The notes under the pieces: generated by a model
The model's database searches: none
What the model saw: only the letters and a program-made list of their open reading frames with translations
What the model was told of the DNA's origin: nothing
Part shown: one piece after another, positions 54,585 to 61,276 of the stretch
Layout: each line of letters starts with the position of its first letter
Numbering within the stretch: the stretch's first letter is position 1
NCBI RefSeq assembly: GCF_009765825.1
Contig: NZ_LMUR01000018.1
Span: forward strand, 1,678,301-1,742,300
DNA: 64,000 nt
Origin: Granulicella sp. L60
GTDB taxonomy: Bacteria > Acidobacteriota > Terriglobia > Terriglobales > Acidobacteriaceae
Direction: 5' to 3'
Translations under genes and position numbers: made by a program

Positions 54585-57407
54585 ATGAGACGCAATCCAG
54601 ATTCTTTGATTGAACGCAGGGAATTTCTGAAGCTCGCTGCAACGGCTACGGTGTTGGGCCTGACACGCAATGTGTCCGCGGCATCTTCCCGGCGCATTTC
54701 CATAGTGGTCGATGCAGGTAATCCTGTCGCTAACAGCGGCCCTGTGATGAGAGCCGTAGGCCAACTCCGAAAAGAGTTGATCTCCAAAGGGATGACGTGC
54801 GAGACTGTGGCGTCTGGTGATCAGGTAGTCGGTTCGGCCTTGTGCGTTGTCGTTGCGGGCACTGATTCGCAGCTAGCTCCAACGCCTTCTTCTGGGGTTG
54901 TCCTCACGACTGCGGAGAGCGTTCGTTTTGTTCCGGGTAATGTGGGCCAGGTGCCCGCAATCTTTGTTTTAGCGATCGATGCGTTAGGCTTCGTCTATGG
55001 GCTACTTGAGCTTGCAGAGCGGGTCCAATTCAATGATGACCCTATGGCTGCGCTCCATTTCGCGGAGTCGATTGAGAATAGGCCTGCAAACGAGGTGCGT
55101 GGCGTCGGGCGCTATTTCTGCTGTGAGATCGAAGACAAGGTTTGGTATTACGACAAAGACTTCTGGCGTGGGTATTTGGATACGCTGGTCGCAAGCCGTT
55201 TCAACCGTTTCACCTTTGCCTACGGGCTCGAATATGATTTCCCAAGAGGGGTCACCGGGGACTACTTCCACTTTGCCTATCCATACCTGGTCGAAGTCCC
55301 TGGTTATCCGGATGTTCAAGTGCTTCAACTATTCTCTCCTGATGGCACAAGGCTCTCCAAACCTGTTCCGCTAAGCAAAGAAGAGCGGGACAGGAACTTT
55401 GATATGCTGCGATTCATCGCCGCCGAGACAGGTGCGCGGGGACTTCATTTTCAGTTAGGCATATGGACGCATGCTTTCCAATGGACCGACAGTCCGAATG
55501 CTTATCATCGCATCGAGGGTCTCACGCCTGAGACACATGCCGCATACTGTCGAGACGCCCTCGCAATTCTTCTCAAGGCGTGCCCGGAGATTCAAGGTCT
55601 GACTCTTCGCGTCCATGGTGAGAGCGGTATTCCTGAAGGAAGCTATCCTTTCTGGCAGACTCTTTTTGAGGCGATCTCCGGTTGTGGCCGCAAGGTAGAG
55701 ATCGATATGCATGCCAAAGGTGTCAACCAAATCATGATTGATATGGCCGCTGGCACAGGCATGCCGGTAAAGCTAGGAGCCAAATACTCCGCCGAACATC
55801 AGAGTCTTGGCTACAATCAGGCTGACATTCGCGCACTCGAGATACCGCACGCAAATTTAAGTGGCAATGACGTGAGTCTGTTCAGCGTAAGCGGAGGTGC
55901 AAGGCTCTTCACTCGTTATGGCTATGGCGACTTTCTCCATGAAGGCAGCAAGTACAAGTTGCTTTTCCGCTCGTGGCCCGGCACGCAGCGACATCTTCTT
56001 TGCGTCGATCCGGAGATGGCAGCTGGATACTCACGCACCTCCAGTTTCTGCGGTGCGACCGGACTCGATTTAATGGAACCTTTAACCTTCAAAGGACGCG
56101 AAGGTTCGGGTGCATCTGGGGGCCGTTGCGCCTATGTTGATAAGTTTCTCAATCCCAATTCGGACTGGAAAAAATATGAATACTACTACCGCGTGTGGGG
56201 ACGAAAACTTTACGATCCGGATACCGATCCCGAGACTTGGCGCAGATTTCTCAGAAGCGAGTTTGGGGCAGGCGCGGTCTCTGTCGAGATGGCGCTGGCA
56301 AATGCCAGTCGCATCCTTCCGTTGGTGACGTCGACTCATCTTTCCTCAGCGAGCAATCACGATCTGTGGGTGGAGATGCCAACCAGTATGCCGATCGTGG
56401 TTGGAAGCGAGCCATCTCCTTACGGAGATACCCCAGAACCTAAGTGTTTCGGAACGGTTAGTCCGCTCGATCCACAGCTATTTTCCACGGTGATTGAGCA
56501 CAGCCAGGACCTGCTTCTTGGACAGCCCAATCCTAAATATTCGCCGATTGAAGTAGCTCAATGGATTGAGGATTCCGTCGCTGCATCGAACCGGGCTTTG
56601 ATCAGTGCACGTGTGACGGTGAAGTCGAAAGCATCTCCTGCATTTCGAAGGATAGAAGAAGACGTTCTCATCCAAACAGGCGTTGGCAGCTTCTTCGCGG
56701 CGAAGTTGCGGAGCGCTGTTTTGTATGAGATCTATCTGCGGACGGGAAGTCCAGAGGCTGGCAGACTCGCTCTCGATCATTACAAAACGGCGCGGGCAGG
56801 ATGGGCAACCATGGCAGGTCGAGCCAACGGTGTTTACCTCTCGGATGTCTCCTACGGACGTATTCCCAAACGCCGCGGTCACTGGAGTGATCGGCTACCG
56901 GATATCGATACGGACATCGCCACGATGCAGGTGAAGCTGCAGTCTTCATCTGCTTCAGTGGACCCCGGGCAAGATGCAGGAGAGGCTATTCGTGCAGCGA
57001 CCGGTAAGCCTAACCGACTATCTGTTCGTTCTGCACACACACAGCCTACAAGCTTTTACCCTGGACAGGCTCTCCCGGTTTCTATCCAGGTGATGAGTTC
57101 GGGTTCAGCAAGTTCAGCTACTTCGGTCCGACTCTTCTACAGACACGTAAATCAGGCAGAGCGCTGGCTCTTCGTTGCGATGAAACGTGAGAATGGCGGC
57201 TTCACGGCCGCGATTCCAGGCGATTATACAAACTCCGATTACCCTTTGCAGTACTACTTCGAGCTGCGACATGAGAATGCGTCAGCGTGGTTCTGCCCAG
57301 CATTTAATTCGACTTTTTCGAATCAGCCATATTACGCAATTTCGAATAGGAGTGAAGTCGGTGGATTGTTGGGTCGCCTCGTTTTGAATGAGGAGCCGAA
57401 GGATTAG
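54585..57407 (+). CDS. Large Tat-exported glycoside-hydrolase-like protein, family not recognised
   Basis: A 940-residue protein with a Tat signal (ERREFLKLAATATVLGLT, residues 10-27). Residues about 40-160 resemble the small alpha/beta domain preceding the barrel in GH20, GH67 and GH84 enzymes (ending DALGFVYGLLELAERVQ). Residues about 165-480 look like a TIM barrel: VRGVGRYFCCEIEDKVWYYDKDFWRGYLDTLVASRFNRFTFAYGLEYDFPR, LHFQLGIWTHAF, GLTLRVHGESGI with a candidate catalytic Glu, and KVEIDMHAKGVNQIMIDMA. A helical region and a C-terminal beta domain follow. I cannot name the family or substrate. Adjacent to the carboxylesterase. Confidence 0.65.
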   Translation: MRRNPDSLIERREFLKLAATATVLGLTRNVSAASSRRISIVVDAGNPVANSGPVMRAVGQLRKELISKGMTCETVASGDQVVGSALCVVVAGTDSQLAPTPSSGVVLTTAESVRFVPGNVGQVPAIFVLAIDALGFVYGLLELAERVQFNDDPMAALHFAESIENRPANEVRGVGRYFCCEIEDKVWYYDKDFWRGYLDTLVASRFNRFTFAYGLEYDFPRGVTGDYFHFAYPYLVEVPGYPDVQVLQLFSPDGTRLSKPVPLSKEERDRNFDMLRFIAAETGARGLHFQLGIWTHAFQWTDSPNAYHRIEGLTPETHAAYCRDALAILLKACPEIQGLTLRVHGESGIPEGSYPFWQTLFEAISGCGRKVEIDMHAKGVNQIMIDMAAGTGMPVKLGAKYSAEHQSLGYNQADIRALEIPHANLSGNDVSLFSVSGGARLFTRYGYGDFLHEGSKYKLLFRSWPGTQRHLLCVDPEMAAGYSRTSSFCGATGLDLMEPLTFKGREGSGASGGRCAYVDKFLNPNSDWKKYEYYYRVWGRKLYDPDTDPETWRRFLRSEFGAGAVSVEMALANASRILPLVTSTHLSSASNHDLWVEMPTSMPIVVGSEPSPYGDTPEPKCFGTVSPLDPQLFSTVIEHSQDLLLGQPNPKYSPIEVAQWIEDSVAASNRALISARVTVKSKASPAFRRIEEDVLIQTGVGSFFAAKLRSAVLYEIYLRTGSPEAGRLALDHYKTARAGWATMAGRANGVYLSDVSYGRIPKRRGHWSDRLPDIDTDIATMQVKLQSSSASVDPGQDAGEAIRAATGKPNRLSVRSAHTQPTSFYPGQALPVSIQVMSSGSASSATSVRLFYRHVNQAERWLFVAMKRENGGFTAAIPGDYTNSDYPLQYYFELRHENASAWFCPAFNSTFSNQPYYAISNRSEVGGLLGRLVLNEEPKD

Positions 57408-57500
57408 AAGCTTCTTAGATATCTCCTAAGTTGTGGAGTTGGGTTGGTCCTCTGGTTGCAAATGGCTAAGTGGATATTACGGATCGTCTGAGGAGTGCAT

Positions 57501-59030
57501 GTGCTGCAGAGAATCGATTCTGAGGTTCGATCGAAGGAGGCAGAGGGAGGACAGACACTCGATCCGAACGACTGGCGAGGTCTTCGGGCGCAGGCGCATT
57601 ACATGATGGACGACATGCTGGACTATCTGGAACATATTCGGGAGCGGCCAGTATGGCAGCCGATTCCGGCGGAGGTTCGTGCGCGATTTCATGCAGCTCT
57701 TCCTTCTTTACCTACACAGCTTGCCGCGGCTCATGAAGAGTTTATGCGCGAGGTGTTGCCATATGCGGGAGGAAATGTTCATCCCGGATTCATGGGGTGG
57801 GTGCAAGGCGGGGGGACTCCTGTAGGCATGCTGGCGGAGATGCTGGCGGCGGGTCTGAATGCGAACCTGGGTGGACGCGATCATATGCCGATCGAGGTGG
57901 AGCAACAGATCGTTCGCTGGATGCGTGAGATATTCGGCTTTCCGGAGAGTGCGAGTGGGCTGTTCGTAACGGGGACTTCGATGGCGAACCTGATTGCGAC
58001 GGTAATTGCGCGCGATGTTGCGCTTGGCTTCGAGGCGCGCGTGCGTGGTATTGTTGCGAGCGGGAAGAGGCTGACGGCGTATGCTTCTAACGCTGCGCAC
58101 GGGTGTGTTACGAGGGCGATGGATATCTCAGGCATTGGGAGCGATGCGTTGCGGCTGATTACGACGGATGGGCGCGGCAGGATCGATCTCGACTTACTCG
58201 AAGAGACTATCGAACAGGATCGCCGCGCGGGCTTTGCTCCCTTCCTGGTGGTAGGAACTGCCGGTACGACGGACACTGGTGCGATCGACAATCTGGATGA
58301 GCTTGCCGAGATATGTGCGCGCCAAAAGATCTGGTTTCACGTGGATGGCGCGTACGGTGCGCTGGCAATGCTCGCACCAGAGTTGGCACCTCGATTGAAG
58401 GGATTGGGGAGAGCGGATTCGCTGGCATTCGATTTTCATAAGTGGGGGCAGGTTCCTTACGATGCGGGTTTTCTTTTGGTGCGGGATGGGGTGGTCCATC
58501 GTAAGGCGTTCGCTGCTTCGGCGGCGTATCTGCAGCGGGAGCAGCGCGGGATTTCCGGAGGCTCTTCGTGGCCCTGCGACTATGGGCCGGATCTGTCGCG
58601 CGGTTTTCATGCTCTGAAGACGTGGTTCACGCTTAAGGTCTATGGCACGGAGGCGCTGGGGAAGACCATTGCCGGGACTTGTGAGTTGGCGCGCTATTTG
58701 GAAGAGCGGATCGCAGAGACAACGGAGATTGAACTGATGGCCGCAGTCGAACTGAACATCGTCTGCTTCCGATATCGCTCTGCGTTTTTTGTGGAGATCA
58801 GGGAGATTGAATCGGACCATATTAACCGCGAGATTGTGATTGAGCTTCAGGAGTCAGGAAGTGTCGCACCGTCGTCGACGATTTTGCGGGGGCGATTCTG
58901 CATTCGGGCTGCGATCGTAAATCATCGCACCACTCGTGCGGAGATCGAGATGTTGATTGAACAGACGCTCGCGCTCGGTCGTGCTCTTGAGAGTAACTAT
59001 GTGTCGTGCCTGAAGACTGAATTGAACTAA
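57501..59030 (+). CDS. PLP-dependent group II amino-acid decarboxylase
   Basis: A 509-residue enzyme of the aromatic-L-amino-acid/tryptophan decarboxylase type: HPGFMGWVQGGGTPVGMLAEMLAAGLNANLGGRDHMPIEVEQQIVRWMREIFGFPESASGLFVTGTSMANLIA, WFHVDGAYGALAML (Asp/Ala PLP contact) and the Schiff-base lysine in LAFDFHKWGQVPYDAGFLLVRD (about 314). It should release CO2 from an aromatic or other amino acid to give an amine; the substrate is not evident. GTG at 57501 is taken because GGAG stands 6 bases upstream; GTG 57495 is also in frame. It is followed after 14 bp by the ATP-grasp gene. Confidence 0.88.
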   Translation: MLQRIDSEVRSKEAEGGQTLDPNDWRGLRAQAHYMMDDMLDYLEHIRERPVWQPIPAEVRARFHAALPSLPTQLAAAHEEFMREVLPYAGGNVHPGFMGWVQGGGTPVGMLAEMLAAGLNANLGGRDHMPIEVEQQIVRWMREIFGFPESASGLFVTGTSMANLIATVIARDVALGFEARVRGIVASGKRLTAYASNAAHGCVTRAMDISGIGSDALRLITTDGRGRIDLDLLEETIEQDRRAGFAPFLVVGTAGTTDTGAIDNLDELAEICARQKIWFHVDGAYGALAMLAPELAPRLKGLGRADSLAFDFHKWGQVPYDAGFLLVRDGVVHRKAFAASAAYLQREQRGISGGSSWPCDYGPDLSRGFHALKTWFTLKVYGTEALGKTIAGTCELARYLEERIAETTEIELMAAVELNIVCFRYRSAFFVEIREIESDHINREIVIELQESGSVAPSSTILRGRFCIRAAIVNHRTTRAEIEMLIEQTLALGRALESNYVSCLKTELN

Positions 59031-59044
59031 GTGAGGGAGTAACG

Positions 59045-60550
59045 ATGCAGCAACGGTGTTCGACATATGGTAACGAGTCGGCAGGAGGATATTTGCGATC
59101 TGGATTGTGGGCCGCGCCTGCTTTGTTGCAAGATGGCAGGCTAATGGAGCAAGAGGGACGAGTCGAGGAAGCGAAGGTAATTTATTTGGCGCTACTGCAG
59201 GATGAGCCCGCGCATCGTGAGGCACTCAACGATCTCGGCAATCTCTTGTTCGCGCAGGGAAAGAACGCGGCGGCTCGTCCATATTATGAGGCGGCGGTAG
59301 CGTCTCATCCTAAGGATCCGATGAGTTTGGTGAACCTGGGAAATCTTCTGATGAAGCTAAGGGAGCTGACGAAGGCTCGAAAGCTATTTGAAGGTGCTCT
59401 CGATGTTGATCCTCATTACAGGCCTGCACATGCGGGAATGTCATTCGCATTGTCAGACCTCGGGGACTCGGAGGTAGCCGCGGAACATCGCCGCATCGCA
59501 TTTCAAGATCACTGTGTTGTTTCAGCTCCTTATCGTGGAGCTCAGCCGCCGATTACAGTTCTGGAACTGGTCTCGACGATTGGTGGCAATATCCGGACGC
59601 AGGAGTTTCTGAGCGACCGGATCTTTAAACGATTTCTGGTGGCTACGGAGTTCTATCACCCTGGGACGGTGCTGCCTCCGCATGATCTGGTCGTCAATGC
59701 GATTGGAGATGTTGATGTCGCAGACGACGCGTTAGCGGTGGCAGAGTCCATGATGGGGCGTACGGGTGCTCCTGTGATCAACCATCCCACGGCGGTGCGG
59801 GCAACGAGTCGTTGCGCTATCGCAGAGCGTCTTGCGGGGGTGGCGAATGTAGTTACGCCGAAAACCGTTTTGCTGTCGCGCGATTTGCTGGAGGCCGAGG
59901 ATGCTGAGGCGGTGCTCTCAGACCGCGGCTTCGAATTTCCTATGTTGCTGCGAAGCCCGGGCTTTCATGGGGGTGAGCATTTTGTGAAGGTCGAGGCGGG
60001 AGCTCAACTTAGGACTGCACTGGCGGATCTGCCGGGGCAGCAGTTGCTGGTGATTCAATATCTTGATGCGAGGCGGCGCGACGGAAAGATCAGGAAGTAC
60101 AGGGTGATGATGGTGGATGGAAGGATATATCCGCTGCACGTGGCTGTTTCGTGGAACTGGAAGATTCATTACTTCAGCGCGGAGATGGCGGACCATGCGG
60201 TACATCGTGCTGAAGATGCCGCGTTCCTTGGTGATATGGCAGGAGCGCTCGGGCCTCGAGCTACGGTCGCGCTGGAAGAGATACAGGCCACGCTTGGGCT
60301 GGACTATGGAGGGATCGACTTTGGCTTGAATGAAGATGGTGAGGTCCTGCTCTTCGAGGCGAATGCGACGATGGCTGTGGTCGTGCCCGATAAAGGAGAG
60401 CAGTGGGAGTATCGTCGCGGCCCCGTAGAGACGATTTACAAAGCTGTCTGGATGATGTTGATGTCGCGAGGACGCAAAGTCAGGGAAGAGATCTGGCGCG
60501 ATTCAAATCCAACCGCCATCGATGACGAAGCTTTGATTGGTAATGCCTGA
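59045..60550 (+). CDS. TPR protein with C-terminal ATP-grasp-like ligase domain
   Basis: A 501-residue protein. Residues about 25-155 form tetratricopeptide repeats (AKVIYLALLQDEPAHREALNDLGNLLFAQGKNAAARPYYEAAVASHPKDPMSLVNLGNLLMKLRELTKARKLFEGALDVDP). Residues about 175-490 resemble an ATP-grasp fold: FEFPMLLRSPGFHGGEHFVKV (nucleotide grip), QLLVIQYLDARRRDGKIRKYRVMMVDGRIYPLHVAVSWNWKIHYF, and LGLDYGGIDFGLNEDGEVLLFEANATM with the Asp/Glu/Asn metal ligands. Such ligases join carboxylates to amines. With the decarboxylase just upstream, the amine made there is a plausible substrate. Its last 48 bases overlap the 3' end of the opposing SDR gene. Confidence 0.82.
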   Translation: MQQRCSTYGNESAGGYLRSGLWAAPALLQDGRLMEQEGRVEEAKVIYLALLQDEPAHREALNDLGNLLFAQGKNAAARPYYEAAVASHPKDPMSLVNLGNLLMKLRELTKARKLFEGALDVDPHYRPAHAGMSFALSDLGDSEVAAEHRRIAFQDHCVVSAPYRGAQPPITVLELVSTIGGNIRTQEFLSDRIFKRFLVATEFYHPGTVLPPHDLVVNAIGDVDVADDALAVAESMMGRTGAPVINHPTAVRATSRCAIAERLAGVANVVTPKTVLLSRDLLEAEDAEAVLSDRGFEFPMLLRSPGFHGGEHFVKVEAGAQLRTALADLPGQQLLVIQYLDARRRDGKIRKYRVMMVDGRIYPLHVAVSWNWKIHYFSAEMADHAVHRAEDAAFLGDMAGALGPRATVALEEIQATLGLDYGGIDFGLNEDGEVLLFEANATMAVVVPDKGEQWEYRRGPVETIYKAVWMMLMSRGRKVREEIWRDSNPTAIDDEALIGNA

Positions 60551-61276
60551 ACTGTCCTCTGCAGCGAGAAAGAGGACAAGTCGTGCAACCTCGTCGGGAA
60601 GGATCATTCGCTTCAACGCCTGGCTCGACAGGATCTCGGCCTTATAGGCTTCGGTGTGCCAGAGTTGTTTCTGTCGTTCGGTTTGGATAGCGCCGGGCAT
60701 AACGCAGTTCACCCTAATATTGTGTTGTCCTAACTCGTGGGCGAGTGTGCGAGTCAAACCGACGATAGCGGCCTTCGCGGTTACGTATACAGGCAGGCCA
60801 GTAGACGGAATGGCCCAGCTGATGGAACTCATATTGATAATGGAGCCGCGGCCTGCACTTTTCATGGATGGGACGGCGGCCTGAGCCATAAAAAAATGAT
60901 GCTTCAGGTTGACGGCCATCGCGTTGTCCCAGTACTTGGAGGTCACCTCGCCGAATGTGTGTCGAGAGTCGTTGCCAGCGTTGTTGATAAGTACGTCGAT
61001 TGCACCAAGCTGGCCGATGATAGCTTCGACCGTTGCCGTCATAACTGCTACGTCCGTAATATCGCAGTGGTGGTAGATGGGGAGGGTCGCGTCAGTCGAT
61101 GCGACTTTGCTGATCAGGACGCCGGCTGCTGCGTCGTCAATGTCTAGAAAGGCGACCTTCGCATGTTGCATCGCAAATGCTTCAACGATGGATGCGCCAA
61201 TACCGCTTGCGCCTCCAGTCACTATGATGACGCGATTGCGAAGACTCGGATACGATGCTTCGTTTTCGATGCCCAA
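60503..61276 (-). CDS. Short-chain dehydrogenase/reductase 3
   Basis: A 257-residue classical SDR: VTGGASGIGASIVEAFA, VLINNAGNDSRHTFGEVTSKYWD, IINMSSISWAIPSTGLPVYVTAKAAIVGLTRTLAHELG with Ser-Tyr-Lys, and C-terminal GITNQSFVIDGGWI. Asp after strand 2 (AFLDIDD) suggests NAD use. The start is TTG, with GGGAG 8 bases upstream. The 3' end overlaps the ATP-grasp gene on the other strand by 48 bp. Related to the SDR pair at 42425-44023 but not identical. Confidence 0.88.
   Translation of the reverse strand: MGIENEASYPSLRNRVIIVTGGASGIGASIVEAFAMQHAKVAFLDIDDAAAGVLISKVASTDATLPIYHHCDITDVAVMTATVEAIIGQLGAIDVLINNAGNDSRHTFGEVTSKYWDNAMAVNLKHHFFMAQAAVPSMKSAGRGSIINMSSISWAIPSTGLPVYVTAKAAIVGLTRTLAHELGQHNIRVNCVMPGAIQTERQKQLWHTEAYKAEILSSQALKRMILPDEVARLVLFLAAEDSSGITNQSFVIDGGWI

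Follow-up and report, generated by a model that had tools for sequence, protein, structure and literature searches.

Known modifications of flagellin are mostly glycosylation and methylation, the ligases ArgX, RimK and LysX ligate amino acids to proteins, and MfnD is itself an ATP-grasp enzyme. As far as the accessible part of the source goes, MfnA and MfnD of methanofuran/methylofuran biosynthesis act as tyrosine decarboxylase and tyramine:L-glutamate ligase respectively, and MyfA, a relative of MfnD, is called an ATP-grasp enzyme (PMC8141765). The sections at hand of two further reports describe an ATP-grasp gene (CDR20291_0245) in the type B flagellin island of C. difficile (PMC5207246) and sfmABCDE as flagellin modification island of Shewanella (PMC3765264), and the accessible text on the R2K clade of ATP-grasp enzymes (CDC123) names a strand-2 lysine and a second Lys/Arg located in a loop, the linker lysine being absent (PMC4431377). 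The present work concerns two neighbouring genes within a 64,000-nucleotide stretch of the genome of Granulicella sp. L60, referred to in its full length as the window. The first gene encodes a pyridoxal 5'-phosphate (PLP)-dependent decarboxylase (DC in the following) and the second a protein in which tetratricopeptide repeats (TPRs) precede a predicted ATP-grasp ligase domain. In the accessible parts of the literature searched, which most subscription papers lie outside of, no description of this decarboxylase/ATP-grasp module was found. It is suggested here, with a probability of roughly 0.45, that the pair belongs to a widespread motility-linked module in which DC would provide an amine and the ligase would convert it into an amide, with flagellin or its glycan as the probable site. 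This suggestion draws on the identities of the domains, the predicted ATP-grasp fold, fusion and co-occurrence of the two genes, their fission in the window, and the placement of homologs in flagellin or hook clusters or downstream of chemoreceptor genes, all of which were computed within this work. The features of the pair are the following:

57495..59030, plus strand: DC, a PLP-dependent amino-acid decarboxylase of group II with 511 amino acids (aa), whose GTG start codon is either 57495 or 57501; PF00282, 8.3e-68
58440..58442, plus strand: codon of Lys316, the predicted PLP Schiff-base lysine (DFHKWGQVPYDAG), invariant in 14/14
59031..59044, plus strand: 14-bp intergenic gap, AGGGAG ribosome-binding-like sequence just before the second ATG
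59045..60550, plus strand: TPR-ATP-grasp protein, 501 aa, ATG start, complete open reading frame (ORF)
59135..59494, plus strand: TPRs, residues about 30-150; several TPR models, PF14559 4.4e-15
59525..60547, plus strand: ATP-grasp domain of the RimK/LysX/ArgX type, residues 161-501, as delimited by an AlphaFold2 (AF2) model
60356..60364, plus strand: Glu-x-Asn, predicted metal ligands (FEANATM), Glu in 18/18 and Asn in 15/18

A preceding annotation made from the letters of the DNA (the sequence-only reading) had placed a TPR/ATP-grasp gene 14 bp behind a decarboxylase gene, and both genes were confirmed as complete plus-strand ORFs, with 57501 being the next in-frame GTG after 57495. By class the first gene is an amino-acid decarboxylase with correspondingly predicted activity, as its PF00282 match (229 bits) passes the curated cut-off of 27 and as His202, Asp284, Lys316 and Tyr345 are kept in 14/14 aligned relatives; based on the literature on aromatic amino acid decarboxylase (AADC) and glutamate decarboxylase, we take the latter two to be the Schiff-base lysine and the catalytic-loop tyrosine, and His and Asp to have the roles described there. 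Best solved relatives are the R. gnavus tryptophan decarboxylase 4obu (profile E 6.2e-94) and DOPA/tyrosine decarboxylases. None of the NCBIfam equivalog cut-offs was reached by DC, the top family being diaminobutyrate decarboxylase (190 of 900 bits), and the score obtained with the MfnA equivalog TIGR03812 (82.3 bits) remained below its cut-off of 299.4. The pocket residues Trp102, Arg128 and Arg471, present in 14/14 relatives, point to no unique substrate.

For the C-terminal half of the second protein no Pfam match above cut-off was obtained (best ATPgrasp_ST, E 0.057), profile searches of the PDB gave nothing above cut-off for the ligase domain, and the RimK family TIGR00768 matched with 4.4e-5 and 23 bits, as compared to a cut-off of 143.4. 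An AF2 model of the domain, built from 18 relatives, reached a mean predicted local distance difference test (pLDDT) of 89.2 and a predicted template modelling score (pTM) of 0.86, and comparison of the predicted fold identified ArgX (3vpb, Z 20.3, root-mean-square deviation 3.7, 262 aligned), RimK (5zct, 20.2) and LysX/ArgX (19.8) as nearest structures, followed by glutathione synthetase (Z 18.1) and D-Ala ligases (about 17). Considering the model, the C-terminal half is predicted to adopt an ATP-grasp fold, and amide-forming activity is predicted from its class. In aligned-domain numbering the metal-ligand positions Asp265 and Glu278 were found in 18/18 sequences and Asn280 in 15/18, the other three having Ser or Asp. 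Hence the ATP-grasp-like domain and its visible metal ligands, both proposed in the sequence-only reading, found support in the fold comparison (Z about 20 to ArgX and RimK) and in the alignment.

The relationship of the two genes was followed up in a class set of 299 genomes, whereby sequences of 60% identity or more were assigned to the DC subfamily (the next identity found in the set is 48%). The ligase domain occurs in 16/299 genomes and full-length DC in 14/299, a fifteenth DC (G223) being cut by a contig end. All 14 genomes with full DC possess the ligase, and 14 of the 16 ligase genomes possess DC, the exceptions being G257 and G121. In 10 of these 14 genomes DC and ligase form a single ORF of 976-1139 aa, so that the linkage of the pair turned out to be stronger than the sequence-only reading had guessed. 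Neither of the two outcomes named there as refuting, a predicted structure lacking the ATP-grasp fold or missing linkage of the genes in other genomes, was obtained. As compared to the window, the DC part of the ten fused relatives is 59-67% identical and the ATP-grasp part 51-65% over the domain. A fused order with one in-frame stop was found in G277, the genes are adjacent in the window and in G298 (the ligase of which represents a second subtype), and in G003 they are 50 kb apart. Aligned to the fused proteins, the 14-bp gap of the window falls where these have the linker between their domains. In a midpoint-rooted tree of 107 ligase domains, the window ligase groups with two fused proteins inside a clade made up mostly of fused sequences, with a support of 0.87 and values of 0.28, 0.97 and 0.95 at the enclosing nodes, and because of this nested position the separation of the window genes is read as a fission. 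The window pair is accordingly read as the divided version of a decarboxylase-TPR-ATP-grasp protein with three domains. As to the fused gene of G277 (L026:6755-9790), the in-frame stop lies in the TPR region, and the sequence belongs to a metagenome-assembled genome (MAG).

Beyond the class, at least 509 stretches encoding relatives were found when species genomes of bacteria and archaea were scanned with the ligase alignment, whereas a scan of the genome collection with the single ligase protein had found none. Eighty ligase loci, some of them repeating class-set genomes, were kept: 21 with a fused DC-ligase gene, 6 with DC nearby, 45 without DC in the locus and 8 too short upstream. All 21 fused loci are acidobacterial records; the ligase is also present in records of several further phyla, with separate-gene versions in Proteobacteria. 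Among 19 genomes with a DC-less ligase locus, 13 carry a DC of 52-66% identity elsewhere. As the ORF caller missed some true genes (e.g., the ligase of L009), tblastn served as an additional source of gene positions. A second ATP-grasp paralog adjoins the TPR-ATP-grasp gene in L056, L062, L063 and L080, on the opposite strand in L062, for which alone TPRs in the second paralog were confirmed.

The genomic context of relatives connects the module to motility. In four acidobacterial genomes of one genus a flagellin gene lies head-to-head with the gene in question, which is the fused gene in three of them and, in G223, the DC cut by the contig end. Thus 4 of the 15 class genomes with DC, all four being relatives of the window genome, have it in the flagellin locus. 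In L027, the one annotated locus of these, the fused gene is followed by two TPR-glycosyltransferase-like genes and a FkbM methyltransferase gene; the glycosyltransferase part is sub-cut-off in Pfam for one gene, and similarity to a Bradyrhizobium-type gene was found for both. Flagellin is present in 15/16 ligase genomes as compared to 162/299 of the class (hypergeometric 6e-4, kinship not corrected) and in 14/15 genomes of the DC subfamily, with 14/23 for genomes having DC paralogs of 48% or less, which is like the background. In a set of 20 genomes, the ten carriers from outside the class all have flagellin (the other ten belong to the class), as have 7/8 genomes of a further check, in which G277 was the miss. 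For the window pair itself, a flagellar role is suggested by homology.

The 13 DC loci from the genomes with a DC-less ligase locus have an ATP-grasp paralog adjacent in 8 cases, and five of them (L146, L147, L148, L150 and L151; in L147 flbT was assigned by Pfam) have flbT and flagellin as well, with two ATP-grasp paralogs per flagellin-island locus in L146, L147 and L150. Of the 198 genomes in the alphaproteobacterial family to which G337 belongs, 31 were found to contain DC at 60% identity or more. Its distance to an ATP-grasp gene is at most 150 bp in 24/31 (gaps at most 121 bp), flbT lies within 0.5 kb of it in 18/31 and within 5 kb in 20/31, and every one of the 31 genomes has at least one of the two, ATP-grasp or near flbT. 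For DC paralogs below 60% in this family flbT is near in 0/9. The 11 genomes of the 31 that are left, which lie outside the flbT matches listed, were read as well and show no flbT match. Chance neighbourhood of DC and ligase is ruled out by the fusion, the nested tree position and the short distances between the two genes in the alphaproteobacterial family. Of the seven genomes among the 31 with DC and without an ATP-grasp of this family, five were read (L192-L196, from G436, G530, G414, G472 and G455), and all five show the order flgE-flgK-flgL-DC-flbT-flagellin-flagellin, whereby FlgE, FlgK and flagellin were identified by Pfam, while the name FlgL derives from the sequence together with a flagellin match below threshold. 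Such DC-only flagellar clusters imply that the amine may be used independently of this ligase or that its place may be taken by a different one. A pointer to flagella is also given by some of the genomes with ATP-grasp and without DC of at least 60% identity: in G396 and G467 the ATP-grasp paralog is less than 0.2 kb away from flbT, and on one contig of G336, a genome in which no DC was found, an ATP-grasp paralog and a flagellin match are at most 1 kb apart. Two further observations concern flagellin loci: a different, CPSase_L_D2-like ATP-grasp (L190:3060-4295, G070) occurs with TPR-glycosyltransferases in a flagellin locus, which is reminiscent of the type B island of C. difficile, and a protein of about 260 aa without Pfam match (CL6) recurs in flagellin islands (L148:2303-3097, L158:4794-5555, L081:8325-9041 and others), which by eye looks like a GT-A glycosyltransferase.

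Besides the flagellar clusters, a second type of arrangement was identified in the 11 other DC genomes of the alphaproteobacterial family, each of which has a cassette of three genes, encoding a class V PLP-fold protein, the ATP-grasp protein and DC. In 8/11 a chemoreceptor gene lies upstream; sCache_2, HAMP and MCP domains were assigned by Pfam in two of the eight, and seven are 76-81% identical to the chemoreceptor of L206 over 493 residues, the eight loci likely stemming from close relatives and hence not being independent. The PLP-fold protein, about 480-570 aa, is encoded in one gene row with ATP-grasp and DC in L148, L153, L158, L009 and L201-L211 (in L210 the first cassette gene matches in two pieces) and adjoins TPR-ATP-grasp in L044. 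It has no Pfam family, profile searches of Pfam and PDB gave chance matches only, and its AF2 model (pLDDT 78) shows the transaminase fold of PhnW, NifS and AGT with Z 21, which we take to be class V. Both the flagellar and chemoreceptor context of relatives and this third recurrent partner go beyond what the sequence-only reading had contained. A SerC-like transaminase is fused to or located beside TPR-ATP-grasp in Burkholderiales and other MAGs:

L064:5443-8103 and L077:5512-7869: SerC-like domain fused to TPR-ATP-grasp, Burkholderiales; in the genome of L064 this domain is itself the second copy of serC
L081:6989-8596 and L084:4360-5450: further SerC-like cases, from genomes that gave no DC match at E 1e-40

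Taken together, the class V PLP-fold and SerC-like partners indicate that PLP chemistry recurs with this ligase. As to the direct neighbours of the pair in the window, the upstream gene (54585-57407) encodes a 940-aa protein with a weak match to a twin-arginine translocation signal, a weak alpha-galacturonidase match (NF049878, 6.3e-6) and no Pfam match, and downstream, on the minus strand (60503-61276), a short-chain dehydrogenase/reductase near D-xylose dehydrogenase (334 of 400 bits) is encoded, whose gene is convergent with the ligase gene and overlaps its 3' end by 48 bp.

The mechanism suggested for the module assumes that, in several lineages, the amino acid is supplied or altered by the class V PLP-fold protein or the SerC-like transaminase. 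DC would then convert the amino acid to an amine, and the ATP-grasp domain would activate a carboxylate as acyl phosphate and join it to this amine as amide, which may end on flagellin itself or on its glycan, with the TPR part possibly holding flagellin or the assembly. The assumption that the product is placed on flagellin or its glycan comes from the gene context and from the protein-modifying ligases neighbouring the predicted fold. The term amine-ligating, used in the sequence-only reading, fits both enzyme classes, its chemistry being as yet a prediction. In its strictest form, i.e., a bifunctional decarboxylase-TPR-ATP-grasp enzyme which installs its own amine as amide on a carboxylate of flagellin or glycan, the proposal would amount to an undescribed flagellar modification; in this form it is put forward tentatively and held to be rather doubtful.

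A number of observations weigh against the motility-linked reading. No flagellin is encoded in the window, whose pair resides on contig C17, while the flagellin of the same genome lies on C20 with no module genes beside it; in 11/15 class genomes with DC the latter is not beside flagellin, and G277 has no flagellin match at all. All 11 cassettes lack flagellin and flbT within about 9 kb, and in Proteobacteria the flanks examined around TPR-ATP-grasp genes contain no flagellin. The two enzymes also occur apart: in the alphaproteobacterial family 7/31 DC genomes are without an ATP-grasp of this family (A2 profile, 0/7), and 16 of 40 genomes with an ATP-grasp match (E 1e-30) are without DC of at least 60% identity, three of which (G358, G403 and G493) carry a close DC paralog of 58-67% identity; 6/19 genomes with a DC-less ligase locus have no DC of this subfamily. 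Both usual nucleotide-binding lysines of the ligase appear as Arg in 18/18 sequences, as placed by an alignment to LysX in which the linker site is shifted by one residue. Finally, in a small comparison of ten linked flagellins with seven controls, no special C-terminus, acidic tract or other acceptor feature was found in the linked ones; some of the sequences were cut by locus ends and one (L190) was in the wrong frame.

Several of these points would be accounted for by a small-molecule route like that of MfnA/MfnD, in which the amine is joined to glutamate or a free carboxylate, yielding a soluble metabolite or cofactor, and the flagellar neighbourhood reflects co-regulation. The same chemistry pair is in use in methanofuran biosynthesis, the three-gene cassettes and the window copy are located away from flagellin, and the two ATP-grasp paralogs of L146, L147 and L150 fit such a route. 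Yet DC resides inside the hook/flagellin cluster in 5/5 DC-only loci read and within 0.5 kb of flbT in 18/31 genomes, the nearest folds are protein-modifying ligases, and there is no MfnA-level similarity, so that this route is regarded as improbable, if worth keeping in view. A somewhat weaker case, considered unlikely, can be made for activities which are not consecutive: the ligase would add amino acids to a protein as RimK does, with the DC product being a separate decoration of the same flagellin or a regulator. The separate occurrences of both enzymes argue for it, as do ArgX, RimK and LysX being the closest folds and an ATP-grasp paralog located less than 0.2 kb from flbT without DC beside it in G396 (C1:3853168-3854397) and G467 (C45:8288-9511), but one chain in 10 class genomes and the short gaps in 24/31 favour consecutive steps, and the C-termini of the linked flagellins inspected offered no acidic acceptor. 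That the module makes a chemotaxis signal, the sCache_2 chemoreceptor encoded next to it sensing an amide derived from the amine and no protein being modified, is very unlikely, as the eight supporting cassettes come from likely related species, no chemoreceptor of this type was found in 13 other DC loci searched, and the glycosyltransferase-like and methyltransferase genes beside the fused gene would be left unexplained.

If the motility-linked reading holds true, soil bacteria and rhizobia would have a new chemistry on a flagellar surface which plants and phages as well as immune systems recognise, and the annotations 'TPR protein' and 'decarboxylase' would become a testable pathway.

With regard to described systems, DC shares its superfamily with the R. 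gnavus tryptophan decarboxylase 4obu and the AADC-like enzymes and differs from them by forming a subfamily of its own, with Trp102 and Arg128 in 14/14. We know of no TPR fusion for MfnA or MfnD. As documented in the accessible part of the source, these two nevertheless provide a mechanistic counterpart, which the sequence-only reading had missed when naming no pathway with such a pair: as would be the case here, a PLP decarboxylase makes the amine and a ligase amidates it with a carboxylate, the differences being that the window DC is AADC-like and that the flagellar context is absent from MfnA/MfnD (PMC8141765). The C. difficile and Shewanella islands likewise have modifying enzymes in or near flagellin loci, though the C. 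difficile ATP-grasp belongs to a different Pfam family (PF13535) and no decarboxylase is named for either island in the accessible portions of the reports (PMC5207246, PMC3765264). Like the R2K clade, as far as described in the accessible text (PMC4431377), the window ligase family appears to depart from the usual lysines, and Pfam R2K_2 matched 4/18 of its sequences (best E 0.0094); the strand-2 position, Lys in that clade, is Arg in 18/18 sequences here. With RimK, LysX and ArgX, finally, the window ligase shares the predicted fold (Z about 20) and the Asp, Glu and Asn metal-ligand positions, while it is set apart from them by a score far below the RimK family cut-off, by apparent Arg at both lysine positions and by the TPR and decarboxylase parts to which it is fused in its relatives.

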